Shown here: piece after piece, positions 21,800-63,480 of the stretch
Layout: each line of letters begins with the position of its first letter
Position numbering within the stretch: the first letter of the stretch is position 1
Source of the DNA: Progne subis subis
Taxonomy: Eukaryota; Chordata; Aves; Passeriformes; Hirundinidae
Direction of reading: 5' to 3'
Assembly: GCA_022316685.1 (NCBI GenBank)
Contig: JAKJHU010001549.1
Location: 62,001 to 126,000, forward strand
DNA: 64,000 nucleotides
Made by a program: the position numbers and the translations under genes
The notes under the pieces: model-generated
Databases searched by the model: none
Told to the model about the DNA's origin: nothing
The model's input: the letters and a program-made list of their open reading frames with translations, nothing else

Positions 21800-40824
<19,025 letters not shown>

Positions 40825-41539
40825 AGCCGGCAGGACGCGGGGCGGGAGCGGCGGGCACGGGCGGAGCGGCGGCGGCGCTGCTCGGCGCTTTAACCCCGCG
40901 GCCCCGCCGCTTCCGGCCCCGCCCGGCCCTGCGCGCGCAGCGGCACGTGGCCCTGCGCACGCGCCGATCCCTCACAGATCGGCCCTCCGTTCCGAGGTGT
41001 GCGGGAATGTTCGCAGTGACCTGTCTGCTGGAAACCTCTGCAGTTTATCCCAAAGGCTCTTTCTGTTTTGAACCTGGAGTCACGTCTGACATTCGGGCAA
41101 ATTTCCGAAATCTTTCCGTAGAGAGATAGTTTTTTAATTAAAAAAAAAAAAATTATCCTCTAGAAAGGCTGCTCTCATGCACTTCATTAGGTAATACTGG
41201 AAATTCTTAATTGTACTTCTATAGTTGCTTCATTATGAAGAATTACCTACAATAAAACTTGAAGTACTTAAAACAACATTCAGTAGCTATCAGAAGTAAA
41301 TACTGGAGGAATTCTCACTTGAGAATTAATTTCCCTACGTGCCCGAGCTTTCCTGTTATTTAATAAATTAATATGTAAGATCAGTGAAGCTGTGTAACTG
41401 TGAAGAACAGCCATCACCTCTGAGAGCATGTCAGTGTCGCTTTCCTGCCTGTGAAATCATTCCCAGTGAGACACCCAGGTGAGTCAGTCTTACCCCAATC
41501 CCTGGAAGAGTGGTGGCATGCCTCACAGGAGGCCATCTC

Positions 41540-43754: not shown

Positions 43755-46700
43755 TTATTCTGGACCTCCACGCTGTAAAAGAAAAGCATACAGTTAAATA
43801 TATTCCACTAATAGAATGTAAAACTGAGATCAAATTCTCTTTTGAACTGCTATAGGCTAAGAGACATAGTTCTAATTTTAATTTCTGATTTAAATACTGA
43901 CTTTTTTACTTATTTAAGAACAGGCATAGAGTATCAAATATCAGCATCTATCAATCATGGCTACATTTTTTTTCAAGGGGAAATACAAAAAAATCATCAC
44001 ATGCTACCTACAGTTATAGCTGCTTCCATGTCTGTCTCCTTCTCTGAAGAAACCTAACTCTTAAATTTAAAAATGTCTGACAAACTTTAAAATAACTTTC
44101 ACTGCCTACATTCCAAAATGCAAAATGAAAAACAAAGCCAAGCGGAGTAGTTACAGTCTTAATGAGAAATCAGAAAGGTATTCAGTTCATTATTTTCCCG
44201 ACAGAATTATTGTACAACTTACCTCACTGTTAAACAAACTTCTGCAAAAAGTCAAGAAGTATACTACTATGGGAAGTAACTGGTTTTATTTCTACTATAT
44301 GCAGTCTATTGCATACATGAAGAACTGATTTCCTCTACTAATATGGTTATGCTATACATGTCCTTACCATTTAACAAAGCTTTGCAAGCATCTTTTCATT
44401 TCAAACTCACAATCACCTCACATATTCCTCGCATTTTGTGCATTCTCCCTTTGAATCATCAGTTTTTACAACTGAGAATTGTTATAGAACAGAAGCAGTT
44501 TTTTCTTATCTTTCATGTACAATGTTATATTTGCAAGTATTGCAGAAAATATTTATATTAAGTTTAATAAAATGTTTCCACTACTTGAAATACAAGAGTT
44601 AATTTACTAATAAATAACTTATAAAACTGGCTTGAGAAATATTTTGGACTTTGATCACCTGCTAATAGCCTTTCCTGGTCTAAGAACAGGCTCTTGCCCA
44701 GCACAGTCAAATTACACATTAAACAGCTGTAATAAAACAGGTAGTGGTGTCAATTAATGCAGGCTGTGACTATCACCAGCTTACCTGCACATCTTCTTCT
44801 AAGTCCAAATTTCTCTACTCAGTGGTACCACAAGCTACTGTAAAGTGAGAGTTGGGTACCTTCTGTATTAAGAATTGGTATTTTGGGTATGAAAACCATG
44901 AAAGCCCAGGGCTTTCACTCTTACAAATAATTACTACGTAATACCATACCAGAAGATGTAGAAATAAGCTAAAGAAAAATACTTACTTGAATATATTCAA
45001 TTTCTTCACCTGACATTTGTTTCCTTCTGTATTTCTGAGGTAAGGTTCTTGTTAATTCAGAAGTGTCTGGTGTACCTTGTACTCTACTAGCAGGTGAAAT
45101 ATTTTGAAAGGCCGGTGATTTGGCTCCTACAAATTCCTGAGCTTTTGAAGCAAGGAGAGATGGCATACTTGCTTGTAGAGATTCCTGTACTGAAACCCAG
45201 ATTTCAAAACCATTTACAGAAATATTATTAGACTGCAAAATTAATAAGCAGGCAATAAAATCTACTATTGCTTGAAAATCTTATTCAAATACCGAAATTA
45301 CAAATAGCTAAAAGAATTAACTCACTCTACTTCTCACAGCCTGCTTTTATTGCTGTTATACGTATCAAGTGCAGAATCTAAAAATTCTGGCAGTGGTTTG
45401 AATGGCAGAACTGCTGATGTGGAAACAGAAGATATATCAGCATATGCCCTAACACTGGCTTTTTCACTGGGAAGCTGTACTTGGCGAAAAAGCATAAAGT
45501 TATGTAAATGTTTGTGCATGGACAATTATGTAGAAAGATAACTGAGATGATGCTTTTCATTTACTGCAGCTGAAAAGACGGACAACTGAAAAAGATCTAG
45601 AGGCTTACAGAAAGATAAAGCTTACAACCACAAAATGCAATGCAGTGCTCTACCTGTTTTAATACTACAAAATGGCATCCTATCACATTTTGCTAATTAT
45701 GTGCATAATGACCACCAAGTATCAGGCATCAGCAATCAATGTTAATGAAATGCAAAGACCAAGGAGTGCATGAAGTTCTTCACAGGAGAGGATCAGGAGC
45801 TAAGCTTCAGGAATTCACATTATAGAAGTTGCCTTGATTGTGCAGACAGCAGAGACAACAAAAGGACAGTGTTTTCACAGTCAGCATTCCAAACTTTAGG
45901 TCTATCCCACCATGGCTGATTTTACAATGGAAATATGCAATTTCCCCACCAGGAAGGACAGAGATCACAGCAATATGTTAATTTCACCTCTCAGTTCCAT
46001 ATGGGATGGGATCCATCCCAGGGTGATGATGGAGCTGGCAGATGAGCTTGCGAAGCCACTCTCCATCTTTTACCAACAGTCCTGGCTCACTGGAGAGGTT
46101 CCAGGTGACTGGAATCTGACCAGTGTGATGCCCATTCACAAAAAGGGTGGGAAGGAGCATCCTGGTAATTACAGGCCAGTTAGCCATGAGTACCCGTTAG
46201 AGTAATGGAGCAGTTTATATTGAGTGTCATCATAAAGCACTTACAGGATGACCAGGGTATCAGGAGGGACATGGGTTTAGGAGGCGTAGGTTGTGTTTGA
46301 CCAACCTGGTCTCCCTTTATGACCAGGTGATCTGCCTGGTGGATGCAGGAAGGGCTGTGGATGTTGTCTGTTTGGATTTCAGCAAGGCCTTTGACACTGT
46401 CTCCCACAGCATACTCCTGGATAAGCTGACAGCCCGTGGCTTGGACAGGAGCACTCTGTGCTGGATTAGGAACTGGCTGCATGGCCAGGCCCAGAGAGTG
46501 GTGGTGAGCGGTGCTGCATCCAGCTGGGGCCAGGCACCAGCGGTGTCCCTCAGGGGTCTGTGCTGGGGCCAGCTCTGCTCAATAGTTTTATTGATGACAT
46601 GGATGTGGGTATTGAATCTTTCATTAGTAAATTTGCGGTTGACACTAAGCTGGGAGTGTGTGTAGATTTGTTGGAAGGTAGGACGGCTCTGCAGAGAGAT

Positions 46701-49700
46701 CTGGAATGGTTGGATGGATGGGCAGAGTCCAAAATAATGAAGTTTAATAAGTCCAAGTGCTGAGTCCTACATTTCAGCACAATAACCCCCTGCAATGTTG
46801 TAGGCTGGGACGGTGTAGGTTGGACAGTGCCAGGAGGAAAGGGACCTGGGGGTGCTGGTGACAGGAGCTGAACATGATGCAAGATGTGCCCAGGTGGACA
46901 AGAGGGCCAATGGCACCTGGCCTGGATCAGGAATGGTGTGGCCAGCAGGAGCACGGAGGTCATTCTGCCCCTGGACTCGGAACTGGTCAGGCCACACCTT
47001 GAGTGCTGTGTCCAGCTCTGTCCCCTCAGTTTAGGAAGGACATTGAGTGCTGTGTCCAGCTGTGTCCCCTCAGTTTAGGAAGGACACTGAGTGCTGTGTC
47101 CAGCTCTGTCCCCTCAGTTTAGGAAGGACACTGAGATGCTTGAGCATGTCCAGAGGAGGCAACAAGACTGGTGAGGGGCTTGGAACACGAACCATACGAA
47201 GAACGACTGAGGGAGCTGCTGTTCTTTTGCCTGGAGAAAAGAAGACTCAGAGGTGACCTTATCACTCTCTTCAACTTCCTGAAGGGTGGTTGTAGACAGG
47301 TGGGGGTTGGTCTCTTTCTCCAGGCAGCAGCTGACAGAACAAGAGGACACAGTCTCAGACTGCACCAAGGGAAATATAGGTTGGATATTAGGAGGAAGTT
47401 TTTCACCACAAGAGTGATAAGGTACTGGAATAGTCTGCCCAGGGAGGTGGTGGAGTCACCATCCCTGGATGTGTTTAAAAAAAGATTGGATGTGGCACTC
47501 ACTACCATGGTTTAGTTGGGAGGTTAGGGCATGGGTTGGACTCGATGATTGAAGGTCTCTTCCAACCTAGCGATTCTGTCATTCTGTGATATAAAAGGGT
47601 AAACCACCTGACAAAGCAGAATTCTTCCACAGAAATCCTTCCCAGTGCTCCAGAAAAATGGGCAAGAAAAATGTAACATCTAACAGCTGGACAGAGGCTC
47701 TATATAACTATAAAATAAGCAGCATGAAAACTGCATGAATCAAAGCATGTGAGCACCTACAACACCATAGTTTTGCCTGCCTTTGTCCTTCCTAGCTCCA
47801 GCAAGACCAATGACCACAAAGGAGAGGGAGCCAGTTTTAGCCTTAGCGAGTCTGATGCAGCCATAGGATTGGGACAAACACCTGCAGCACTGTGACCAAG
47901 TCACCATTGAGAGGCATATTCAGAGGCTGTCAGTCATAAGATTGGGTCTGAAAGTCACAAGGTGGTTCAGAAATAATGGAAGATCCCAAACAGAGGAAGG
48001 CAGAAGTGAGCCCACAAGAAGCAGCATATTGTGAACAGGGGGTAAATTACTTTTGTTTCAAGAAATAATACACCTTATATACAAAACAAACAAACAAAAA
48101 ACCAACAAAAACAAAACAAAACAAAAGCTTCTCAAAGTTTGTTTCATCTACCACAAAAAAGTCATATGATCTGTCAAGGATTTTCCTCTACTGTATGTTT
48201 CAGCCTGAAGTGTAGTTGGAGTAGACTCCTTAGCCAATTAAAACCATCAGAAGTGCAGTAATCAGAATTTTTACTGCTGCTTTAGTTCTGTTACAGTCTC
48301 TACTACATCTCTCCCTTCCCTCTTTGAGACTATAATGCTGGAATAGTAATAGGCCCCCTAGAATTTGACTGGCCTTTCACATCCAGCCTGAGGAGTTGTT
48401 CTGAGGAGCCATTTAGCTATGCAGCAGCAACAATCTGGTACAATTAAATGTAGTTTTTGCTACAGCATTCAAGCAAGACAAAGTAGGTTGCAGTCTACCA
48501 ATAAGATGGCAGATCCTGATGAAGGTAGAAAAGTCTAATGTACCTAAAAGAGACAGTCACAACAATCTTCTGACACAGAGATAAACAAGAAGTCAGAAAC
48601 ACATTTTCTAGCTTTTGAGAGAATAGTTCACTGGCATGAGAGGTGGTGCATTTGGCTGAACCGTGCAAAATGTACAGAATTTTGACAGAAAGTTATTGCA
48701 GAAAATAGTTCCTGAAGAGTTCACGGAGAAGTCAGAAGAGGCATTTATATGCACTGCATAGTTTCAGATGTAAAACTAAAACTGCAAAGCTAAACTGTGG
48801 GCTTGATGATGATGTCGCAAATAACTAGGAACAGTATAATTTCGAAAGAAGTGAGAATAACATAACACAGCTTTTAGAGAAAACTGCTACTTTTCTTTGA
48901 GATACTTTTTGACCCAAAAGGACTTCTAAACCAACATATTGCTACATAAACCCGTTGTTTAAATAAAATAGTATTGGGAATATGATAAATATCAACATGG
49001 GTATAAAAGTTAATATCAAAGATTGCAATGAAATATTTCCTCAGCATTAATTAGTAACACAAGAAAATAATTCTTAAATCATACAGAGGGCTGGATCTCC
49101 CAGCTATAACCATGTTTTGAAAATAGAGCAGAAAATACATCACACACTTCAACTAAGAAAAAATGAGGAAAATGCAACAACATTTATGCAAATATCTGAA
49201 TAACTGAATAACTAAAGCTTCTTCAAAATGACATGGGCACAGTCATTTCAGTAAATATTAGTACTTGGGAAAACGTGACTTTATATAAAGTAGAAAACAA
49301 ACACTGGAAATCTTTGTGAATCTTGCTTGAGAAAAAAAAAGCTGTGCATGCATTATGTGTCTACACACAGTTGCAAAGAAAAGAAGTTATGAAGAAAATT
49401 CAAGAGTTGCCTTCAAACTAAATCAAGCATGTTGCAAAAACCTTGCTCCAACTCAGTTCAGTTGCATAGCTGAAAGCAAGAAGCTTGGTCCTGGTTCCTA
49501 AATAAAACAGGCCATGCAAAGAAATGTGGTACAAGCTGTATTCATATCCAAAATACTTACTTTTAGGTCTGGGACCACTTTTTCTGTCTGGGAATTTTAT
49601 TAAAGGAGTATGTGGCTTGACTACCTAGAAGACCAGGTCGGGAGAGAAACAGACACAAGTTACCTTGAATAATAAAATGGAATGTACAATGTATCAAACA

Positions 49701-50695
49701 ACTACTCCCAACAGCTGCTCTCTTCACCACTACTTGGATACACTTACTACTTGAAGCTCTCAGTTCACCCCAAGAATTTTACTTAAAAAGCAGTCCTGCA
49801 CCCAGACGTCCAGGTACAGGCTTTGTTTTCCTATTCTCATCAGGGTGTGTAAGGAGAAACAGCCATTACCATTGAATGAATACAATCACAATGCAATCTG
49901 TTCTGGTGAGAATCCACCTATAGTGCCGTGTTCAGCTCTGGGGTCCCCAAGCAAAAAAAAAAAAACAAAACCATGGACGTGCTGGAGTGAGCCCAGAGCA
50001 GGGCCTTTAAGGTGATCAGAGGGCTGAAGCACCTCTCCTGTGAGGACAGGCTGAGAGAGCTGGGGTTGCCCAGCCTTAAGAAGGTTCTATGAAGACGCTA
50101 CAACCCAAAGAGAGCAGCTTTGGATTAGAAAGATTAGGAAGAAATTCTTTATTTTGAAAGTGGTGAAGCACAGGCACAAGTTGCCCAGAGTAACTGCGGC
50201 TGTCCCATCCCTGGAAGTGCCTAAGGCCAGGTTTGGACGGGGCTTTTTAGCAATAGAATAGACCTATTCCAATGAAGGTGTCCCTGCGCACGGCGGGGGG
50301 TGCTGTAACTAGGTGACCTTTAAGATCCCTTCCAATCCAAACCATGCCGTGGTTCCACAGCGCCTCAGCACACGGAATCGCGACCTATACAAAGCACTTT
50401 CACCTTGGAGAGGCCCATCTTAGGAAGGAGCTGTCAGCCAGCTCCACAACCGCTGCTATCACAGCACCGGGCACCTGCGACACCGTGTGCGCGCCACTGC
50501 ACGGCTCTCCCCAAGGACACCGGCCGCCCCAGCGGCGTGTCCTCAAGCCGCGGCCGCCTCAGACCTGCTGCTCGGCGGCAGCAGCAGAAGCGAGCCCCTC
50601 CGCCCGAGCCAGGGCTCCGGCTGTCTCAGATACCGCCGTTCGGGGGCCGCCCTTACCTGCACCGCCCTGGTGGCAGCCGCCATCTTGCTGCCCAT
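43755..50695 (-). CDS. MRPS36: MRPS36 / KGD4, complete, 4 coding exons
   Basis: Small mitochondrial protein first listed as ribosomal protein S36 and now known as KGD4, which ties the E3 subunit to the 2-oxoglutarate dehydrogenase complex. Coding exons, in minus order: 50695-50657 ([13 protein letters not shown]), 49624-49561 ([15 protein letters not shown]...), 45189-44987 (includes [18 protein letters not shown] and [10 protein letters not shown]), 43772-43755 (RGGPE, stop TAA at 43757-43755). Junctions are GT/AG and in phase; the total is 107 residues, close to the human 103. The basic N-terminal half and the C-terminal EYIQRGGPE are the family hallmarks. Exon 1 lies in a CpG island. Introns 1 and 2 contain CR1 insertions at 49.92-50.34 and 45.9-47.59 kb, antisense to the gene. 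Confidence 0.96.
45900..47592 (+). mobile_element. CR1 LINE, long 3' portion, plus strand, in MRPS36 intron 2
   Basis: The best preserved CR1 in the window. It shows the reverse-transcriptase segments [40 protein letters not shown] and [19 protein letters not shown], and the C-terminal [20 protein letters not shown] region. It ends at 47.57-47.59 kb with CTTCCAACCTAGCGATTCTGTCATTCTGTGA. Frameshifts and stops interrupt the frame, so it is dead. It carries an internal tandem duplication at 46998-47130. Confidence 0.9.
46998..47131 (+). repeat. Tandem triplication of a 45-bp piece inside the CR1
   Basis: The segment ending TTTAGGAAGGACA recurs with ends about 45 bp apart, near 47042, 47087 and 47132. 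The copies are nearly identical, so the duplication is younger than the CR1 insertion. In the normal CR1 this piece occurs once. Confidence 0.85.
48084..48125. repeat. A/C-rich (AAAC)n-like simple repeat
   Basis: Repeated AAAC/AAAAC motifs in MRPS36 intron 2, possibly the tail of a degraded retroposon. Confidence 0.8.
49915..50345 (+). mobile_element. CR1 LINE 3' fragment, plus strand, in MRPS36 intron 1
   Basis: Text such as TTCAGCTCTGGGGTCCCCAA, GTGAGGACAGGCTGAGAGAG, GGAAGAAATTCTTTA and CCCTTCCAATCCAAACCATG is the 3' part of CR1. It ends about 310 bp downstream (in transcription) of MRPS36 exon 1. Confidence 0.85.
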
Positions 50696-51659: not shown

Positions 51660-54600
51660 TTACTGAAGATAGGAACTTTTTTCAAGCTGTAGAACAATTG
51701 CCTTTAAAGACGGATCTTTTGCCCAGTTAACTCTGCTTCCAATTATGATGTTCTATAAATGAGAAAGATTTACAGGTTAAAACAAACCCTTGCAAAGGAC
51801 AATTCCTAGTAAAATATTTCAAAGAAAGTCTGCTTTTTAATTTGTAATTTGAAAGCCCTTGAAATTCACAAGTGTTTGAAATAGACAAGGTGGGGCAAAA
51901 AAGGAGAAAGTGAAGCAATCTTATTGTTGATACATAGGCAATTCCTGCCCCCTGCCACCGATCCATGTTTTTTGATTTCCATGAAGGGATTGCATACCAC
52001 CTCTATTTTAAACAATGAGAACATTTTTAACAATGTGAAATAAAGTTTGCCTCAAACACAAATTAAGAAAGTTAACTTTTTCACCCTGCCATTCTGGATA
52101 TAAAATGGGAATTTAATCAAAGAGGATTTGCTCTACTTAGGGCTCAGAAAATTTCAGGAATACAAAACTAGGAGATAATTTTAGACTCTAATCTAAATCC
52201 CAGTAAAATGTTAAACTTCTTGTTCTCAAATTGAGATGTTATCAATGCAAAATAATAGCAGCCTTAGCATGCAGAGCAAAACGTCAGACACTCTTTTTGT
52301 CCTTGACATTCCTGTGCAGCCTGAGACCCTTCCACCCTAACCCAAACCTCCATGCTTTGCATGACCCCACGCTCCAGGTGACCTGCCAGAGGCTGCATGC
52401 ATGCAGAGTGGTTAGCAGCCCCTGACACACAGATAACCAAAGGGGCAAAGGCATCACTGAAGGAATGTGGCCGCTGCTGCAGGCCAAGGCTTTCACAGGG
52501 CTGTAGGGCATGACACAGAGAAGGCATGTGGTCAGAAGGGACAGATGGAAATTCACTGGAAACATGGGATTAACACCTATTTATTTTTTCTAACCATGAG
52601 ATCAGTAAACTGATTTGGTAGGTGCAGTGGTGACTCAGAGCAGAAGGAAATACAGCCATTACTGTGACAGACATTCTTCAAGAAAGATGCATTAGTTTTG
52701 TATCTTTAAGGAAACAAGATAGATTGATAGACTATCCCTAAACCCCTCAAAAAATTAAAGCAAATACGCTTGTGACAATTTCGTGCTCTTAGCCTTTAAA
52801 GCAATAGAAATCTTCCTTCTAGACACCGTTCTTCCATTACCACTGTTTGGAAAACACAATTTTGTGCTGTTATGTTATATTTGCCATATAGTATTGTTAT
52901 CTTGAATGTAATAAAAAATTGTAAACTTGGTTCTAAAAGCCATGCAACATTACCTGGAACACATTTTGAATTATTGTAGTCATCTGTCTTTCTCGTTCTA
53001 ATTTTTTAAGCCTGTTCGCTCTTCCAGTGACACTCACACTTGCTTGTTTCTTCTTTTGCCTTTTCATCACGGTCTGAATTTGCTGTAGTTTCTGTCTTTC
53101 ATCTACTTTTAGAGCTGTTACATTATTAGGAAAATTAAACATTAAGTGGTTAGGTGAACAGTAGAACTGAAGATATTATTTTTCCTCATGGCCACCTAAA
53201 CTTCCACTGCACTCTCCACAGCAATAACCCTAATTTCACACTCCACTCCTTCCCTCCAACATACCTCAAGATATTTCTTTTATGAAAGAGGCTCTAGCTA
53301 CCGCATATCAAACTACATCAATTGGCTCCCTCGCCAAGAGCAAAACAGAAAGTACGTTATACGCTACCTGCATTTCCCGCACACCAGGACTAATTTCCAT
53401 CTCTGTCCTATATCCTGTTTTTGAGTGCCACAACTTGTACAGATCTTTTTTATACCTCTTAAAGACCCTTACTCCTTTTTCATATTTCATTGAAACCAAA
53501 TTCCAAAGTCCTACAAGGAGCATATGGACATGAAATAATAAAATGCTGCCACATTGTTTTTGAGTGTTGTCTTGCATCTCTCATTCTAACATGTCAGTCT
53601 CACGTTCAAGTAGGGAACACTCCAGCTCATCTCTACAGTACTTTCTACTCTTTTAACCAGTTTCATAACTGTGTTTTGTTACTTCCCATGTAAATTAATA
53701 TTGCTACAAGAACTACTTCAAAATATAAACTATATGAACTCTACATTAAAATACAAACCAAAGTCAATACAGATAACTTACAGAGCCTTTTCCTTCTCAT
53801 GTCAGTCAGCTGCTGTTCCTTCTGATCTGCTTGCTGAAAGGTAAAAAAAAGTATTTTCCAGACTCTTGTCTTCAAAAATATTGAAAGGTGCTAATTCAAT
53901 CCACAAAAACAGCTAAGGGCAACTCTAAAACAGATTTACTTACATGCTCACTTTAAGTAATCCTCTCAATAATTTTGACAGCACTAGGAACTGCACCCAT
54001 GTCACCACATATTTAACTTCAAATGACTTGTGCAGTCCTGTTGCTTTCAAAATGCACTCCTGCCCATGCTGAGGTTGGTTGACCTGCACAACAGTAACAG
54101 AAGCTACGACTGCCACTTACCTGCTGATACTCAATTATTGTCCGGCTGAGCAATCCTATCTCTTTCATGGTTTCGAGGATCAGACTAAAGAAGGAAAAAA
54201 ACAGTTGCATACCTTAAGGCCACTAATATAAGTCAACACTGTAAATATTTTAATCAACATTATCTAGTTTAAATAAAGGATTTCTCATTTATCCTAAGAG
54301 CAAAATAATATTATGTGTCTGCACATATCTTTTTATAGTTAATATACTCAGTATCATTGTAGAGGCCAAAGAGTTCCCTTACTTCCCTCTCAGTTTTCCT
54401 AAGACTTCATTTAAGTCTGTCCAACATTTTAAATCACACAGTTTGGAAGGCATCAAGAAAGTCCAGCCATCAGACAGCTGGAAACAGCTATGAATTAAAG
54501 CTTCTAAATCATGGACATGCAATCTCTTAGCTGTATTTCTGACAGAAATTAAATTTCTCATATTATACTTCATTTGCATCCACCTGTTAATAATTAGTAG

Positions 54601-57600
54601 GGAATTAAAAGGTACTTTTAAATGTTTAAGCTTTCAGTTCTTTGTCACAGATATTTTGCTCCTACACATTTAATTAATAAAGGCAACAAAACAGAGGCAA
54701 GATCCTGTTACAAGCCTGTAATATGTGCTCAGCTATTATAAATGCAGATAATTCAGGCACTAAAAACAAAAAGCTCTATTGGCTAAAAGCAGTTCTCACT
54801 AGCGAATCAAGAGTTATGATCTCTGTGATCAATGGTGGATAAATTCAGAGCCCAACTGTAAATCTACTATGGGCCATGAGGTACCATGAGGTCTGATCAT
54901 GCTGATTCTACCAGAAGGTAGACAGTATATCATTCTGTCAAATCTAGAAAAAGGAAGCTTGCTTTCACAAGAGGTAAAATGAAATAATCTAGAAATACGT
55001 AACAATAAACTGTGCTAAGTCCATTCCTTTCTAGGCATCTGACCCCCAAGAACACCTTACCGTGAGTCCTCATCATCTTGTTCCAATTTGTTTCTCAGGG
55101 CATTCATAATTTGGACCCTGCATATTGTAAGAAATAACATATGACTGATGAGAACTCATAAGGAACTGAGAGAAGCAGGAAACGAAGTAGGTTGAAATAA
55201 GTAATAGAAAAAGATAAAATAGAAAAGGATAATTTCCAGGATTCTACTTTTGTCCACTTCCACATTGGAATTATATAAACAAAATCCTCAGTACCTTTTA
55301 AATATCACACTTCATAAATATTGGGGCTTAACTCTCAGGACAGGATGAAGGATCAACAATTATTTGTAAGAGTGACAACTCCTTTGTCTCTTGACCAACA
55401 TATTTGGACACCATTAATCCCAGAGCCTGCAGAAAGGAAGCTGGGCAAAGGTGTCAATTCAAATAAACAGCCATGAAATACATGGGATGTCTAACACCAA
55501 CTTCCATCTTTTCATAGGCATTTGGAAAATATTGCCAAGAAATATGCTTACTGATCTGTACAGTCACTCTTTTCCAACTGTAAAGGAACTTTTGGGTTTA
55601 CACATTTTAACTGGTAAATTTTTAGTTTTGGTGGGCTTATTTTTGTTTTGTTTTCTACAGCATATCCATCTGCATTCCTATAGTTTAATTGTACTTAAAA
55701 TCTTTCCAATCTCCCATATCACCTTAAAACCCTGTTTTAATCAGATCTATGTATATGTGCATCTATGTATGCACACACACAGAGGGTGAAGAAAATTCTA
55801 CCTTTGCAAGGCCAAGGTCTTATTCTGGAAGGAGACTTTTACTTCCTCTATACTTCTTTGCAAATCTTTCGTGGCACTGAAAGACAAAAAACCAGTAAGA
55901 GAGACAACCTGAGTGTGAAGTGTCACATTAAAAACAGTGTCACATTTTAACTTGCTTTCTACATATGTAATGTAATAATTTTTCATGTGAGCCACAAATT
56001 ATTAAGGCCAGGAGTAATTTAGCATGTGGAACTGTATTAGTGAATTCTAGCCATCACATGAAGGACTGCAAATTTAAAAGCCACATCAGATACAGAAGTA
56101 CACTGGGAGAATGAATAAAGAATTTCTTCCCCATATTTTCTCTTAGTTTCCATTATTTTCACCAATCTTATACAAAGTACTGATTGTTAATCCAGCGATT
56201 CACTATGAAGGAATAACTAGAAGAAAGTTTTGAAGTTATCCAGTGACATACCTCGCGACAAGATTTTCTTCAATAGCATTAATCTTCAATCGATCAATAA
56301 AATTTTCTTGATCTGAAAAAGAGAATGTCACTAAAACAAGCACAATAGAGACTTTTAAAGACAATCTATAGAGCATAAAGGATTAGTATTTTTTGTGTGA
56401 ACAAGTTACTTCTACCTCCAAGGTTTATTATCTCTTACTGTTAAATGAGACTATGCTCATGAGACAATGCTATCAATCAGCAGTATAAGAGAAATAACTA
56501 GGTTTTAAAATATTTTAATTTAGCACTTTTTAGAAGAGCTGGACATGTTCATGACATTGCTCTATATATGCCACTGGAGGGCTCACAGTGGAAGAGCACG
56601 TACCCAGCTGTACTCTGGGCTGTATCAGAAATGTGGCCAGCAGGTCAAGAGAGGTGATTCTGCTGCTCTACTCTTATCTTGGCAGTCCCCACCTGGTGTG
56701 CTGCATCCAGGCCTGGGATTCCCAACATAAGAAGGAATGTGTTAGAGCAGCTCCAGAGGAGGGCAGTGAAGGTGATCAGAGGGCAGGTGCACCTCTCCTA
56801 TGAGGCAAAGGCTGAGAGAGTCGCTGTTCAGCTTGGAGAAGATTGCACAGTGACCTTGCTGAGTCTTTCCAGTCTCTGAATGAAGCTTACAAGAGAGCTG
56901 GAGAAGAACTTTTTACTAGGGTATGTAGTGACAGGACAAGGCTTGTACTCAAAAGTGGGCAGGTTTAGATTAGTTATAGTGTGGGGTGGTGAGGCACTGG
57001 TAGAGAGATTGCCCAGAGAAGCTGTGGATGCCTCATCCCTGGAAGTGCTCAAGATCAGGCTGTCAGGTTGGATACGGCTCTGAGCAAGGTGGTCTAGTGG
57101 AAGGTGTTGCTGTGCATGGTGGAGGGTTTGGAACCAGATGTGTTTAACATCCCTTCCAACCCGAATCATCTCGTGACTCTACAGGTAATGGAAACACCTT
57201 AAATCAGTATTGCTGCCAAACGCTTTGGCAGACTTTTGGCAAGACTTCAGCCCCAGTGACCAGATTTCTGAAAACCATCACTAGTGTCATGGGAGTCTAA
57301 AGTTCAAACCCAGAAAAGAAAGGAAAGGGCAGTGGGCAACAACTATATGGCATCTTTGTAAACACTCAAATATGTTTCAAAAGCCGCCTATAAAATGCAT
57401 TAAAACGTACACCCAGGGGAAAAAACAAAACAACCCCATCATTATCGTAAGGAGGACTTTACATAAATAATTAAAGAAAACATTCAAAAATTATATATAT
57501 GTGTGTGTGTATACATATACATACATATATACACACACACATCGCATTCTTTGTTAGTGCAACATCCCACTGCGAGGAGGGATATACTTACTGGCAAGAA

Positions 57601-57966
57601 CGGCGCTTTTGTACTCCTCGAGCTGTTCCTTCATTCGGTCCCTCAGGCTGCGGCGGGAGTAAAGCGACAACGGTCAGAGGCTGTGCATCCCTTCATCCCA
57701 CCCCTGGGCTGCTCCCCGTCCCGTCCCGCCGGCACTAACCGGAGCAGGCTGAGGACATCCACGTCGCAGGGGTCGGCGATGCAGGCCGGGCCCGGGGCCG
57801 TGGCCGTGGCCGGGGTCGTGCCCGTGGCCGGGGCCATGCCCGTGCCGGTGCCCGTGGCCATACCCGTGCCGGTGCCCGTGGCCATGCCCGTGCCGGTGCC
57901 CAGGGCCCTGCCCGTGGCCATGCCCGTGCCGCTGCCCGTGCTCGGGGCCGCGTTCAGTTCCGCCAT
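51660..57966 (-). CDS. CENPH: Centromere protein H, complete, 9 coding exons
   Basis: Subunit of the constitutive centromere-associated network, needed for kinetochore assembly. Coding exons, in minus order: 57966-57740, 57647-57592, 56312-56252, 55876-55802, 55117-55061, 54184-54121, 53833-53782, 53114-52954, 51752-51660 (stop 51662-51660). All junctions are GT/AG and in phase, giving 281 residues against 247 in human. Recognisable blocks are [19 protein letters not shown] (exons 1-2), [16 protein letters not shown] (exon 4), LTDMRRKRL (exon 7), TTIIQNVFQ (exon 8) and [20 protein letters not shown] (exon 9), matching human GSKVNWAEDPALKEIVLQLE. Most of the body is predicted coiled coil, as in the family. 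The extra length is largely in exon 1, which carries a Gly-Thr-Met-Ala repeat not present in mammals. A CR1 lies in intron 2. Confidence 0.96.
56550..57185 (+). mobile_element. CR1 LINE 3' fragment, plus strand, in CENPH intron 2
   Basis: Pieces such as [20 protein letters not shown] and [18 protein letters not shown] are CR1 ORF2 C-terminal sequence. The element ends CCTTCCAACCCGAATCATCT, the usual CR1 3' end. It is interrupted and inactive. Confidence 0.88.
57497..57541. repeat. TG/TA/CA dinucleotide microsatellite in CENPH intron 2
   Basis: A compound ATAT-TGTG-TACA-CACA array ending about 50 bp downstream (in transcription) of the CENPH exon 2 donor. Confidence 0.9.
57839..57945 (-). repeat. 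CENPH: In-frame 24-bp minisatellite in CENPH exon 1
   Basis: A 24-bp unit (plus-strand form starts CCCGTGCCGGTGCCCGTGGC) repeats about four times with small changes, flanked by weaker copies to about 57800. Twenty-four bases are eight codons, so copy number can vary without breaking the frame. On the coding strand it gives [12 protein letters not shown] octapeptides in the CENP-H N-terminus. Confidence 0.85.
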
Positions 57967-58959: not shown

Positions 58960-59045
58960 GTTAAAAACTTCTAGCCAATCCCATATAATAGGAGAGTACA
59001 ACTGTTCAATGGTGCTTATCTTGGTGTTGGCGATGGTGGTGATGC
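58960..59045 (-). pseudogene. CCNB1: CCNB1-like block E: C-terminal exon
   Basis: The minus strand reads ITTIANTKISTIEQLYSPII then WDWLEVF, against human SKHAKISTLPQLNSALVQ and DLAKAV. Upstream the frame meets a stop within five codons, so the human TVKNK portion is gone or the acceptor has moved; an AG lies at 59047-59046. Downstream the native stop is missing and the frame runs on to 58768 through CR1-like sequence. The similarity is weaker than in blocks A, C and D and leans on position and order. Confidence 0.6.
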
Positions 59046-59054
59046 CTTAAAGAC

Positions 59055-59640
59055 ATAGAAATGAAACAACACACTTTCGAGGCAATATTAATAAAGGAGA
59101 TAAATAAAGGCTGGTCTTTATTTGAGGCATCCAGGGGCAGATATGGAAAAATGCCCACCTCACATGGGGTGAATACAGCTTTGTAAGTTTAGCAAATTAG
59201 CATAATTGACAAGAATTCTCAATTAGAAGCACAAGCAATGAAGTAATTCTCACCTGGTCAACTCTCTCTGAATCCTCTCCTACCCCTTGCTCTTAGATAG
59301 GAGCTAAACTTTGTCTTTGAAAATGTGTCTCAAAGAGCTGATTTCAACCTTGGCTCCCAGGAAGAACCAAGATAGGACAGGGGCCTTAGACCCCCAGCTT
59401 GGGGCCTCTGGGAAGTGTTTTGTCTTTCTGCCTATCAAGGTAGGGAAAAGGTGGGGAGAAGTACTGGGGCTAGCTAGGAACTACTGTACAACAATAATAT
59501 ACAGAGTGAATATACATGAAGGAAGTATAACAACGAAAATCATTCTGGCATCCGGGGCATATTTCTTCATTACTCTCTGCAGAGAAATGAGGTTATGTTT
59601 ACCCTGTTCACTATTTCAGCTCACTTAAGGCTTGGTGATC
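59055..59640 (-). mobile_element. Possible LTR insertion in the CCNB1 remnant
   Basis: Between blocks E and D lies a block with LTR-like content, including AATAAAG/TTTATT motifs at 59088-59120. No viral reading frame is present. Its edge falls within about 10-40 bp of block E, which may explain the lost 5' part of that exon. The family is not identified. Confidence 0.35.
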
Positions 59641-59843
59641 AAGCCAGACCCATCCTAGCACATAAACCCCACTCATGGATGGTCCATCTTTATCTGAGCA
59701 AGATAAAGATCTTCAGCTCGGAGGTGAGCAGATCTTAAATTTAAGTCTGTCTGCAGTGACAGACTGAACCAGCCTCAGTGTGCCATGTATCTACACATAA
59801 CCACACCTATTTCCCCCACACCTCTGCACCCTAAGATTCTTAC

Positions 59844-59952
59844 CTTTTGCTTGGCAGCACGCTTACTCACATTGATTACATTTTTTGCCATATGCCATAT
59901 AAATGGGAGAATGTCACTCTCAATGTAAGATGCAGCATTGCAGAAGTGGTAA
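59844..59952 (-). pseudogene. CCNB1: CCNB1-like block D: end of second cyclin lobe
   Basis: Preceded by a pyrimidine-rich acceptor (CCCCTTCCTTTCAG), it reads YHFCNAASYIESDILPFIWH then MAKNVINVSKRAAKQK, against human HYLSYTEESLLPVMQH and LAKNVVMVNQGLTKHM. It ends AAAAG|GTAAGA, a strong donor. The matching frame begins one base after the acceptor, whereas block C ends in phase 0, so the splice would shift the frame. That mismatch is direct evidence of loss of function. Confidence 0.85.
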
Positions 59953-60241
59953 CTGAAAGGAAGGGGAATCCATTAGATAAGCCTATTAGAATAATCGGAG
60001 TACACTGGGTTCTTTGTCTTCAGTTTTGCTTGGACAGTTATGGTCTCTTGTCTCACAGTGGGAGGTTTTAAAAGGCACTGCCCTACTGCTGTCCCTTTTT
60101 AGTGGTCCCCAGGAAGACAAGAACGTGTTGAAATACTATGAGGAATGGAGGAGGCATGCACCTTTTAAGAGTGGCCTTTTAAGCTGCTGCACAGGCACAC
60201 TGAATCACAAAGTAGGAGGTGGCCTGACAAGCACAACTTAC

Positions 60242-60372
60242 CAATGTGCATTCATCAAGGAGTTTCAGAGACAAAGAGAAGGCAGCTGCTGCAATCATGA
60301 ATGGAGGAAAGTGAACCCTGTCATAACTCACAATGCACCGCTCCATCAGGTACTTGGCCAGAATGTTTTGTT
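60242..60372 (-). pseudogene. CCNB1: CCNB1-like block C: second cyclin lobe
   Basis: After an AG acceptor the minus strand reads [20 protein letters not shown] then [20 protein letters not shown], against human [20 protein letters not shown] and [20 protein letters not shown]. It ends TTG|GTAAGT, a consensus donor in phase 0. Frame is open and splice sites are intact, so this block alone would look functional. It is the clearest evidence that the locus derives from cyclin B1 or a very close B-type cyclin. Confidence 0.9.
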
Positions 60373-60719
60373 CTGTTTACCTGCAATAAGTCAGAGTTGA
60401 ATATTGGCTATCTCCAGGACAAGAGCATTCTGTCAAGCCTTGGTTTAGTTAAACAGGAAGAAATACTTCCTTAGAGAACACTTGCAGAGTACAGGGTTGA
60501 AATTCAGGTGGCTTAATCACAGAACATGTCTGTGTTATATTAGGCTGCTCATAGTCTAGGACTGCCCCTTTCAACAGCAGTCTAGCAGTTACCTGCAATA
60601 TCAGTGTCACATTCCACTGCAAGGCGAGAGAGGAAGAGAGAAAAAGATACCAGTGGAGGTCAGGGAGTGCTGTGGATGTCCATGAGGTGGGGGGTGCATG
60701 CTGTTTGATGGGCAACTGG

Positions 60720-61235
60720 ACATGAGGTGAGGAGATCAGGCAGGACGTCCAGAAGTCTGGAAAGGGTCGTAGTGTGGATCACAGCAGTGGGCTGGCTCGG
60801 AGGCAGGCAGGGTTGGACTCAGGTGGCTCAGGCAGGGACACAGGGAGGCAGAACACACACGAGAGCGAGCAAGAGCCAGCGAGGACAGGAGAGCCAAAAG
60901 GAAGGCTGGGGCCAGGTCAAAGGGCAAAGTCAGGGGAAGGCCAACAAGACTGACATCCTGGTTGGATGTTATAGACCACCAACCCTTGTTCTGGTAGGTG
61001 ACTTTAACCTGGCAGCTATCAGACGGGAATCCAACACAGCAAAGAAGAGGCAGTCCAGGAGATTCTTAGAGTGCGAGGAGGGCAACTTGTTACAGCTGGT
61101 GAGTGAGTGTACCAGGAAAGGGACTATACTAGACCTCCTGTTTGCAAACAGAGCTGGTGGGAGATGTGGCGATTGGAGGCCATCTGGGGCATAGTGGTTA
61201 TGAAATTATAGTTGTCAATATTTTCAAAAATTTTG
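60720..61235 (+). mobile_element. CR1 LINE endonuclease-region fragment, plus strand
   Basis: The plus-strand frame 60727-61194 contains TLVLVGDFNLAAI and RRFLECEEGNLLQLVSE followed by GTILDLLFANRAG, the C-terminal part of the CR1 endonuclease domain, then frame-shifted GDVAIGGHLGHSGYEI. It lies between blocks B and C of the CCNB1 remnant, antisense to it. Confidence 0.85.
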
Positions 61236-61298
61236 AACCATTTCAACAAGTTGCCACAGTTAAATATTGCCTTTTCCAGATTCAATTTACAATATTAC

Positions 61299-61620
61299 CT
61301 ATTCTCGACGCTTCTGCAATCTTTGAAGCTCTTCTTTGGCCCTGCAGAGGGAGAGGGCAACCCAGAGAGAAGTCCAGGGCTTTCGGGATCTTTGTCTCCA
61401 TCTGGTGGATGTGGATCCTTAAGCAAACGTGGTCAGTTGCATAGCTAAAGTCTTCAATTTCACCTTGAAAACAGCATTGTCCTGTAGAAAGAATCAGTAG
61501 AGATTTATCTAAATTACTTGGTTCAGAACACAGGTTTTCAAGGTAGTCAGTGTAAGGTTGGTTATGTGGCACCCACTTACACAGAATAACTACACATCCT
61601 CTGTTTACCTCTCTTGACAC
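61299..61620 (-). pseudogene. CCNB1: CCNB1-like block B: damaged cyclin box
   Basis: An AG acceptor at 61622-61621 opens a frame reading VSREVNRGCVVILCKW, aligning with human GREVTGNMRAILIDW but without the conserved R and D. After a poorly matching stretch about 20 residues too short, the frame becomes clear again: EIEDFSYATDHVC, then QMETKIPKALDFSLGCPLPL and RRASKIAEA, against human [33 protein letters not shown] and RRASKIGEV. The block ends at AATAG|GTAATA, a good donor. A second AG acceptor at 61483-61482 may mark an original intron that has collapsed, or a deletion. The residues ASKYEE, needed for CDK contact, are absent. Confidence 0.85.
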
Positions 61621-61831
61621 CTGCAGGGGTGTTAGAAGGCCTTGAGTTCAAATCAGGGAGAGGAATAAAAAGTTTTGATACATCAACTCACAGTTCATAG
61701 CCAAGAGCTTTGTGTGCACATACAATTGAGAATTGAATGTCCTCTGTTGGTCATCTGTATTGTTAAAGGTACGTACAGCCAGGTAGGGTGTTACTAACCA
61801 GCATTCATGCTTTAGCCTAGGGTAAAAGCCC

Positions 61832-62092
61832 CTTGTCAACTGACACATCCAGTCACTTCATGAACACTTATGGAGAGTGACTTTATCACTTCCCTGGGCA
61901 GCCCATTCCAATGTCTGACCACCTTTTCAGTAATAAAATTCTTCCTGATGTGCAACCTGAACCTCACCTGGCACAGCTTATGGCCATTCCCTCTTCTCCT
62001 GTCCTTATCTGGGAGTTTGGTACAGATATAACCCATGGGTGTAAGACCATAGGGCACAAGGTTTCCTTGCTCACTAGACATGGGCTAGAAAG
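61832..62092 (-). mobile_element. CR1 LINE 3' fragment, minus strand
   Basis: Minus-strand translation gives [20 protein letters not shown] then [12 protein letters not shown], the CR1 ORF2 C-terminus. It lies between blocks A and B of the CCNB1 remnant, in the same orientation as the gene. Confidence 0.85.
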
Positions 62093-62296
62093 AGCACAGT
62101 GCTAGTATTAGAAGTTGATTGGTCTAACAATCAGCATCTCTTCTTGTGATCATCTGAGTCCAATCCTGTATTTTAAAGTTGAAGGAAGCTTACTAATGCC
62201 TCTGGAGAAATCACTGGTGAAAGTGAGTACCAACTCCAGGGCAGGCCACACCTACACGGACAGGTTAACTGCAACTGTCATTAGAAGCCTACCAAC

Positions 62297-62434
62297 CTCA
62301 GGTGTCTCAGATAGTTGTAGATGTCCTTCATACAGCTGCTACACAGGTTTGGGTCATTACTATCTGACATGTCTGGGTCTTCAGACTCAAGCAAGATATC
62401 AGATAAAGCCTGACACAGTATGTGTCTTCTGCTG
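62297..62434 (-). pseudogene. CCNB1: CCNB1-like block A: N-terminal helix before the cyclin box
   Basis: Minus-strand translation contains [20 protein letters not shown] followed by [19 protein letters not shown]. Human cyclin B1 has [20 protein letters not shown] then DPNLCSEYVKDIYAYLRQL, so about half of the residues are identical with no gaps. The block ends at a possible GT donor (CTGAG|GTTGGT) where the human exon continues with EEEQAV. The frame is open. This is one of the two strongest pieces of evidence for CCNB1. Confidence 0.88.
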
Positions 62435-62599
62435 GATCACATTCTCATATGTCAATGGAGTTTGGAGACTGATGCTCTGACTACAAGGAAATTCAGAAAA
62501 TCACTGCAGATAACACCTCCCTCCACAGCCCAGGGTGGGCCAAGCTGTAATCTTGCAGCATGGAGCCCCACAGGGGCTCATGACCCTTATTTCAGGGCA

Positions 62600-63480
62600 C
62601 CAGAGGAAGGCACGGCTCTGCTGCAGCGGCGGCTGGGGAAGGGACACAAGGCACAAGGAGGCCGCAGAAGGTACCTTAGAGGGCTCTGGCTGAGGCTCCG
62701 GGGCTGGTGGAGGCGCGTTTTCCTTGGCGAAAGCCTCAGCAGGCTGCTGGTAACCATCCTCCCCGAGGCGGGGGTTGTGATGACGCTTGACACTGCCCGT
62801 GGTCCCCCATCAACTTGGCGACTTCTTGGCGGCTGGGCGCATTTTCGGGTCAGCCGTGAAGCTATCCCCAAGCATTCTTGGGGACGGAGGGCGTGCTCCT
62901 CTCGTTCGGGGGATCTGCTGCGGAGCGCAGGGGAGGGCGAGAGAAGGGGACGGTGCCTGTGGGTGTGCGCTGCGCCGCCGCGCCCCCGGGCCGCGGGAAC
63001 GGGAGAATCGGGGCAGCGCTGCAGGCAGGAGGAGCGGAGCCGGGGCAAGCCCACACGGCACCGGAGCAGAAGGGCTGTGGACGCGGAGCTGAGGGGCTTC
63101 ACTCTCCTCCCCTTCAGCCCTCTAGGGAACAAACGGGCTGTCCCAGGAAAAAGCGAAATGGGCACACGCCCAGCGCCCTCCCCGCCAGGCGAAGACCGGG
63201 CTGCATCCCGCACTGCCCGCCAAGCTCAACAGAGTTGAGGGAGCGAGCAGGACACGAGGAGCCGAGCAGGTGCCTCCCCGTGAGCCACGGCAGCATCCCC
63301 GCCCGCCCCTCGCCGAGCCGAGCTGGCCCCATCGCGCACGTACCGAGGTGAGCTCCGGGCAGGGAGAAAGCCGCGGGACAGGCGCGGTGCAGGCGCGGCG
63401 CCTTGGAAACGCCCAGCCGCCAGCCCTGGCTGGCCGCACACCGCCCCGAGGCACCGCCGCAACTCGGGCCCTGCTGACCT
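62600..63480. promoter_or_regulatory. CpG island at the CCNB1 promoter position
   Basis: A CpG-dense block of nearly 0.9 kb, immediately upstream of the CCNB1-like blocks. Good splice donors occur on both strands (plus CCGAG|GTGAGC at 63347-63349; minus CCTCG|GTACGT near 63343), so it may still start a transcript. Large open frames here on both strands have no recognisable protein and are attributable to GC richness. Confidence 0.6.
62675..62865 (-). pseudogene. CCNB1: Possible CCNB1 first-exon trace
   Basis: Within the CpG island the minus strand reads IASRLTRK from 62865, where human CCNB1 starts MALRVTRN; the first codon is ATA, not ATG. A second phase then gives RLGEDG and a Pro/Glu-rich PPPAPEPQPEPSK ending at AAG|GTACCT, reminiscent of ALGDIGNK and the PVPEPEPEPEPEPVK stretch. 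Joining the two phases requires a frameshift. The match is short and low-complexity, so this is tentative. Confidence 0.3.

Follow-up and report, generated by a model that had tools for sequence, protein, structure and literature searches.

Unitary gene loss is already known as a kind, and a close case among birds is STK33, described as a unitary pseudogene in neognaths (PMC4509753). Cyclin B1 (CCNB1) is a different sort of gene: mice null for it die as embryos whilst B2-null mice are fine (PMC3162929), a contrast that has led to cyclin B1 being regarded as the non-replaceable mitotic cyclin. Here we describe a 64,000-nucleotide stretch of DNA (the window; positions 62,001 to 126,000 of contig C612 in a 1.17-Gb assembly) that holds a decayed CCNB1 with its introns, on the minus strand at approximately 58,978-62,974. 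Judging from its sequence, this locus is very probably what remains, at the original site, of a passerine's single-copy ancestral cyclin B1 gene, now dead. The likeness to STK33 is that an ancestral gene decayed where it stood and that palaeognaths retain it, whereas CCNB1 differs in being a core mitotic cyclin and in still being kept by many Neoaves. The surprise is which gene died.

Intact avian CCNB1 genes, such as those of curlew (P0174), ground hornbill (P0203) and kiwi (P0139), have the same exon blocks as the remnant, and the C-terminus of the remnant (KISTIEQL..IIW) is of the neoavian type, as in intact neoavian CCNB1. All four peptide blocks quoted in the first-pass annotation lie in open minus-strand frames in cyclin B1 order, and its coordinates for the relic were about right; it did not mention that one exon is missing, that another has an internal deletion, that a repeat interrupts the last exon, or that a C-terminal piece (KISTIEQL) is present. 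The pieces are:

62672-62974, minus strand: frameshifted N-terminal coding remnant, containing an LGD that resembles a destruction box and a KEN..PPPAPEPQPEPS stretch (frame-tolerant alignment)
62297-62480, minus strand: CCNB1 exon remnant of 184 bases, frameshifted; AG precedes and GT follows (tblastn, frame-tolerant alignment)
61570-61617, minus strand: candidate shred of the MRAIL exon (SREVNRGCVVILCKWV); score reached by 4, 6 and 23 of 100 shuffles with three queries in a short region
61299-61481, minus strand: CCNB1 exon remnant, DNAVFK at the acceptor, a gap of ~24 codons, then GEIEDFSYATDH...RRASKIAE (frame-tolerant alignment)
60242-60380, minus strand: CCNB1 exon remnant with a frameshift at its start and donor GTAAGT (tblastn, frame-tolerant alignment; Cyclin_C E 1.8e-8)
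59844-59952, minus strand: CCNB1 exon remnant (LPLLQ / SYIESDILPFIWHMAKNVINVSK) with an internal frameshift (frame-tolerant alignment)
59553-59576, minus strand: last CCNB1 exon, first piece (RVMKKYAP), read at the acceptor
59040-59552, no strand assigned: dispersed repeat inside the last exon, ends approximate (genome copies compared)
58978-59037, minus strand: last CCNB1 exon, second piece (TIANTKISTIEQLYSPIIWD), neoavian-type C-terminus (score 41, null maximum 32)

Human CCNB1, in a sequence 100% identical to a database record, was used in a tblastn search of the window, a check that the first-pass annotation had proposed for mammalian CCNB1. It matched blocks at 62,418-62,299 (60% identity), 61,545-61,312, 60,373-60,254 (65%) and 59,930-59,850, three of them with E of 5e-10, 1e-10 and 1e-10. 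When the piece at 61.3-61.6 kb was compared with PDB sequences by phmmer, six CCNB1 chains came top (E 4e-11 to 2e-10), ahead of two colicin immunity proteins (both 0.12), with cyclin A2 (0.61) next. With a frame-tolerant aligner, five exon queries scored 143, 132, 142, 69 and 41, the highest scores over 30 base shuffles per query being 42, 43, 35, 29 and 32. The N-terminal part scored 117 against Ciconia CCNB1 (null maximum 99, reached by 0 of 60 shuffles) and was likewise unmatched by 60 shuffles with each of four other bird queries, the weakest narrowly (72 against 66); the human query was marginal, at 88 against a shuffle maximum of 84. Two pieces match weakly: RVMKKYAP scores 19 against a null maximum of 23 and is therefore not significant alone, and the DNAV start, reached in score by 1, 18 and 8 of 100 shuffles, rests on its place at the acceptor.

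A set of 41 intact CCNB1s, chosen from 225 proteins and including those of Pterocles (marked low quality) and Morus, was used for the tree and the count of invariant sites. Identity of the remnant to these genes ran from 92 to 116 of 182, most over 181-182 columns, compared with 93/182 to human CCNB2 and 88/182 to the CCNB2 of its own genome; only the fast Morus CCNB1 was not closer to the remnant than human CCNB2 was. In the tree, which held neither Galloanserae nor any passerine, the remnant fell inside bird CCNB1 (support 97) and with Neoaves (support 92) on a terminal branch of 0.64, and supports between the Neoaves node and the remnant were 10-39. On sequence grounds, the remnant resembles CCNB1 more than it does other B- or A-type cyclins. 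An earlier tree that set the remnant beside Bucorvus (79), together with a count of 34/54 sites, had been built on the wrong SLLILSTGQCCFQ stretch and was replaced. That stretch was rejected as the continuation of the exon upstream of GEIEDF, the acceptor lying within it; the exon begins with DNAVFK, and the deletion follows.

The lesions are of several kinds. Frame-tolerant alignment of the locus against shuffles found no recognisable exon for the MRAIL helix, and the exon of residues 183-235 scored 35 against a maximum of 37 from 30 shuffles. By sequence, the MRAIL exon is gone or unrecognisable; the score of the candidate shred was reached by 5-24 of 100 shuffles when a long region was used. 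The exon after it has lost ~24 codons following DNAVFK, the KLQLVG..ASKYEE helix among them. The reading frame shifts between ~62,468 and 62,419, again where the 60.38-kb exon begins and once more within the 59.95-kb exon. Moreover, the last exon is split by a dispersed repeat of ~0.5 kb (~59,552-59,040), of which 39 other genome copies are 69-86% identical (40 scored of 705 candidates). Among seven copies compared, which differ from the inserted one by 21-24%, five reach 59,552-59,540 and, on the opposite side, all seven end at 59,054-59,034; by eye, no clear target-site duplication was found around the repeat.

As a working CCNB1 the remnant fails on two counts: no single open frame runs through the spliced exons, and the cyclin box is incomplete, wanting both the MRAIL and the KLQLVG..ASKYEE helices; its CDK1-holding core is lost. 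The three frames of the spliced remnant contain 21, 27 and 16 stops, with longest open stretches of 75, 60 and 55 codons, counts that include the repeat and 3′ sequence. Pfam finds of Cyclin_N only profile positions 94-126 of 127, below cut-off, and of Cyclin_C positions 7-65 of 119, which is to say the end of the one domain and half of the other, whereas both domains are nearly whole in the intact CCNB1s of curlew and ground hornbill. Of the residues invariant among the 41 intact genes, 47 are covered by the remnant and 34 are kept, 13 being lost; when each intact gene was left out in turn, the lowest retention was 87% (47/54).

The neighbourhood of the remnant is the ancestral one. Searches by tblastn with human queries gave the minus-strand order SLC30A5 end, CCNB1 remnant, CENPH, MRPS36, CDK7 on C612, which agrees with SLC30A5-CCNB1-CENPH-MRPS36-CDK7, the order on human chromosome 5. 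The SLC30A5 end lies outside the window at C612:128,933-128,044, in two pieces with 82% and 89% identity to the human tail. Within the window the neighbours are:

51675-57646, minus strand: CENPH exons, open in the parts covered by 5 exon queries, none of which met a frameshift or stop; one query (score 14) matched unconvincingly; human residues 111-159 not covered
44987-50695, minus strand: MRPS36 exons, open; 3 exon queries without frameshift or stop
24581-40827, minus strand: CDK7 exons, open; 11 exon queries without frameshift or stop; sole CDK7 locus found in the assembly

In all, the 19 exon queries met 0 frameshifts and 0 stops, and 18 of the 19 aligned convincingly. The sandgrouse CCNB1 record (P0192), read by eye, extends into an apparent CENPH exon 1, which fits CCNB1 and CENPH being adjacent in a second bird. 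Since introns are kept at the ancestral position, the remnant qualifies as a unitary pseudogene on that score. Processed and segmental duplicates are the usual source of cyclin pseudogenes, and the locus might be one of these and not the ancestral gene; nothing was found in favour of this, the flanks match the human order on both sides and the split into exon blocks resembles that of CCNB2 in the same genome, so that we regard a duplicate as vanishingly improbable. For a processed copy in particular, the introns between the exon blocks and the two-sided synteny led to its rejection.

A second CCNB1 was sought in the whole 1.17-Gb assembly with curlew CCNB1, and none was present among the 25 rows obtained with E no higher than 1, all 38 candidates having been scored. 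Five rows fell on C1668 (CCNB2), three on C612 (the remnant) and 17 elsewhere at 29-50% identity, on C224, C1112, C824, C2121, C732, C113, C757, C2864, C2080, C2298, C2205 and C1646. C224 carries CCNA2, C1112 a CCNA1-like gene and C824 CCNB3, and those on C2864, C2080, C2205 and C1646 look by eye like D-type cyclins. The absence of an intact copy elsewhere in this assembly is another property of a unitary pseudogene, and the claim of the first-pass annotation, an intron-bearing unitary CCNB1 pseudogene beside CENPH, is borne out by the exon blocks, the synteny on both sides and this search, which it had itself suggested. As a side observation, Cyclin_N matches of equal score were paired across C1646/C2205 and across C2080/C2864, which suggests duplicated or haplotig contigs.

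These searches also bear on the possibility that the window is a decayed W-linked (or duplicate) copy whose Z counterpart is an intact CCNB1. C612 is only 129,549 bases long, compared with 17-38 Mb for some other contigs, and in chicken the region lies on the Z chromosome (PMC3621764), both of which would suit such a copy. However, no second CCNB1-like place exists among the curlew matches, CENPH, MRPS36 and CDK7 bear no lesion, and no second CDK7 locus was found, all eight rows above 62% identity lying on C612 at 69-92% (117 of 789 candidates scored). We consider a W-linked or duplicate copy very unlikely, and the W gametolog was set aside for want of a second CCNB1 or CDK7 locus in the assembly.

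Another account would have the gene as a working but divergent cyclin B1 whose apparent breaks are faults of assembly or sequencing. Intact neoavian CCNB1s are themselves fast-evolving, and splice dinucleotides look well kept in the remnant, with AG or GT at 9 of 9 sites picked by eye, although one of them stands 12 bases from the homologous position, which reads GC. This preservation weighs against our main reading, as do the single assembly, with which single-site read errors are possible, the cyclins on C2121, C113, C732, C757 and C2298, left unnamed and matching at 29-48%, and the fact that the takeover of cyclin B1 work by CCNB2 or CCNB3 is deduced from what is left. Nevertheless, read error cannot account for the combination of a lost exon, a deletion and an insertion, and the missing MRAIL exon, the deleted helix, the several frameshifts, the repeat in the last exon, the 13 lost residues and the lesion-free neighbours all speak against a working gene, which we hold to be extremely improbable. 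Assembly noise was rejected on the 19 of 19 neighbour queries that are free of lesions.

The B-type cyclins CCNB2 and CCNB3 are partners of CDK1. Both are present at other loci of the same genome and, unlike the remnant, are open where found. CCNB2 on C1668 is covered by seven open pieces (human residues 9-51 and 92-395, with 1-2 residues missing at two joins), and human residues 52-91 were not found there. CCNB3 on C824 is covered by six open pieces that span residues 122-381 of chicken CCNB3 at 84-92% identity; neither terminus was seen. For the dead ancestral gene we envisage the following course. Constraint on cyclin B1 would have loosened along the neognath line, allowing cyclin B2, and in part cyclin B3, to take over its work with CDK1; a null CCNB1 allele would then have reached fixation in passerines or an ancestor, leaving CCNB2 and CCNB3, and this probably happened some tens of millions of years back. 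Since fixation the locus would have decayed, and an old repeat would have landed in the last exon. By our own arithmetic, the loss of 13 of 47 fixed residues amounts to ~0.14 neutral changes per base, and the 21-24% divergence of the repeat to about equal change per copy. With a bird neutral rate of 2-3e-9 per year, these point to an age of ~45-70 million years, as an order of magnitude.

The genome is almost surely that of a passerine, given its duplicated growth hormone (GH) genes. These lie on C336 and C2330, and their aligned stretches are 78-86% identical as DNA, which makes them paralogues rather than alleles. Two GH genes were reported in 154 of 183 passerines, at most one in all 159 non-passerines and a maximum of two copies per passerine (PMC10016047). 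We also observed a third, partial GH copy at C2753:2588207-2589661, more than 99% identical to the C336 gene and with no match found to the last exon; either a haplotig or a recent duplication may account for it.

The first-pass annotation had this lineage losing a core mitotic cyclin, and for this lineage the claim holds; it does not extend to birds at large. With a turtle query, the best 120 of 5,050 matches include CCNB1 from ostrich, emu, kiwi, rhea, two tinamous and curlew. With the curlew query, at least 50 bird CCNB1 rows (6 palaeognath, 44 neoavian) stand among the best 120 of 1,749 matches, the neoavian holders including gulls, storks, cranes, herons, penguins, hawks, a cormorant, nightjars, a ground hornbill, a seriema and a pigeon. 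Loss in all birds was rejected on these palaeognath and neoavian entries of the protein database. Passerine, parrot, falcon, galliform and duck names were absent from the same best 120 of 1,749 matches; the rows are partly unnamed and each is a cluster with other members unnamed, which makes the absence a hint, not a tally of losses.

The surviving genes have changed at very different speeds. For a rate tree over 290 columns we selected 49 intact CCNB1s (23 of the 44 neoavian, 5 of the 6 palaeognath and 21 others), omitting close relatives and apparent mispredictions (including Pterocles, Morus, Aegotheles and Eudromia). The mean distance from the bird ancestor was 0.316 to the 23 Neoaves compared with 0.026 to the 5 palaeognaths, about twelvefold, in a comparison of CCNB1 alone, some records being partial predictions. 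The neoavian stem measured 0.135 and the turtle crown mean 0.051 in the same tree. Each neoavian gene has changed at 9 to 27 of the 153 sites that show no variation among 26 other tetrapod CCNB1s. The gap is large, and constraint on CCNB1 most likely loosened in neognaths, although general rate differences exist among these birds. The fastest genes are those of hawk/eagle, cormorant, seriema and pigeon (P0212, P0216, P0217, P0223, P0225), with 17-27 of the 153 sites changed, and these may be heading for loss too.

Chicken chromosome 10 carries CCNB2. A table in PMC1876622 places CCNB1 on that chromosome, and the genes listed for a fine-mapped part of the chicken Z include SLC30A5, CENPH, MRPS36 and CDK7 and not cyclin B1 (PMC3621764). 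Against a loss in chicken, CCNB1 has been used as a marker in chicken myoblasts (PMC11066001). In a chicken qPCR paper the text has CCNB2 where a table has CCNB1, with the same fold change (PMC10525107), which looks like a slip. No statement of cyclin B1 loss in chicken or birds was found among the literature matches listed, which cover few subscription journals. We give about an even chance to a broader scheme in which cyclin B1 would have become dispensable from the neognath branch, evolved some twelvefold faster and been lost in passerines and probably separately elsewhere, for example in the chicken line.

Passerines make up more than half of living bird species (PMC5729268). If the loss is true of them, more than half of bird species would have no B cyclins other than CCNB2 and CCNB3 for mitosis and female meiosis. 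A vertebrate lineage free of B1 over the long term would test which B1 jobs B2 or B3 took on and which were given up, those at issue being mitotic entry, the checkpoint scaffold, separase control and oocyte arrest. Moreover, assays of 'CCNB1' in birds may report a different gene.

Beyond CDK7 the contig gave no match to AK6, TAF9, RAD17 or OCLN at E 1e-3 (C612:1-86000, including window 1-24500). The first three come after CDK7 in human, and their absence may reflect a synteny break, a greater distance or a contig misjoin. Between exon remnants of CCNB1, at 60,709-61,194 on the plus strand, there is a CR1-like endonuclease reading (Exo_endo_phos_2, E 0.0068, under the Pfam cut-off). CENPH exon 1 (window 57784-57940) contains a GC-rich tandem repeat of 12/18 bases that reads as TGTGMA-type protein repeats, and the length of the CENPH N-terminus may therefore vary. 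A further tandem repeat, of 44 bases in 3.2 copies, lies inside the MRPS36 gene span at window 47000-47140.

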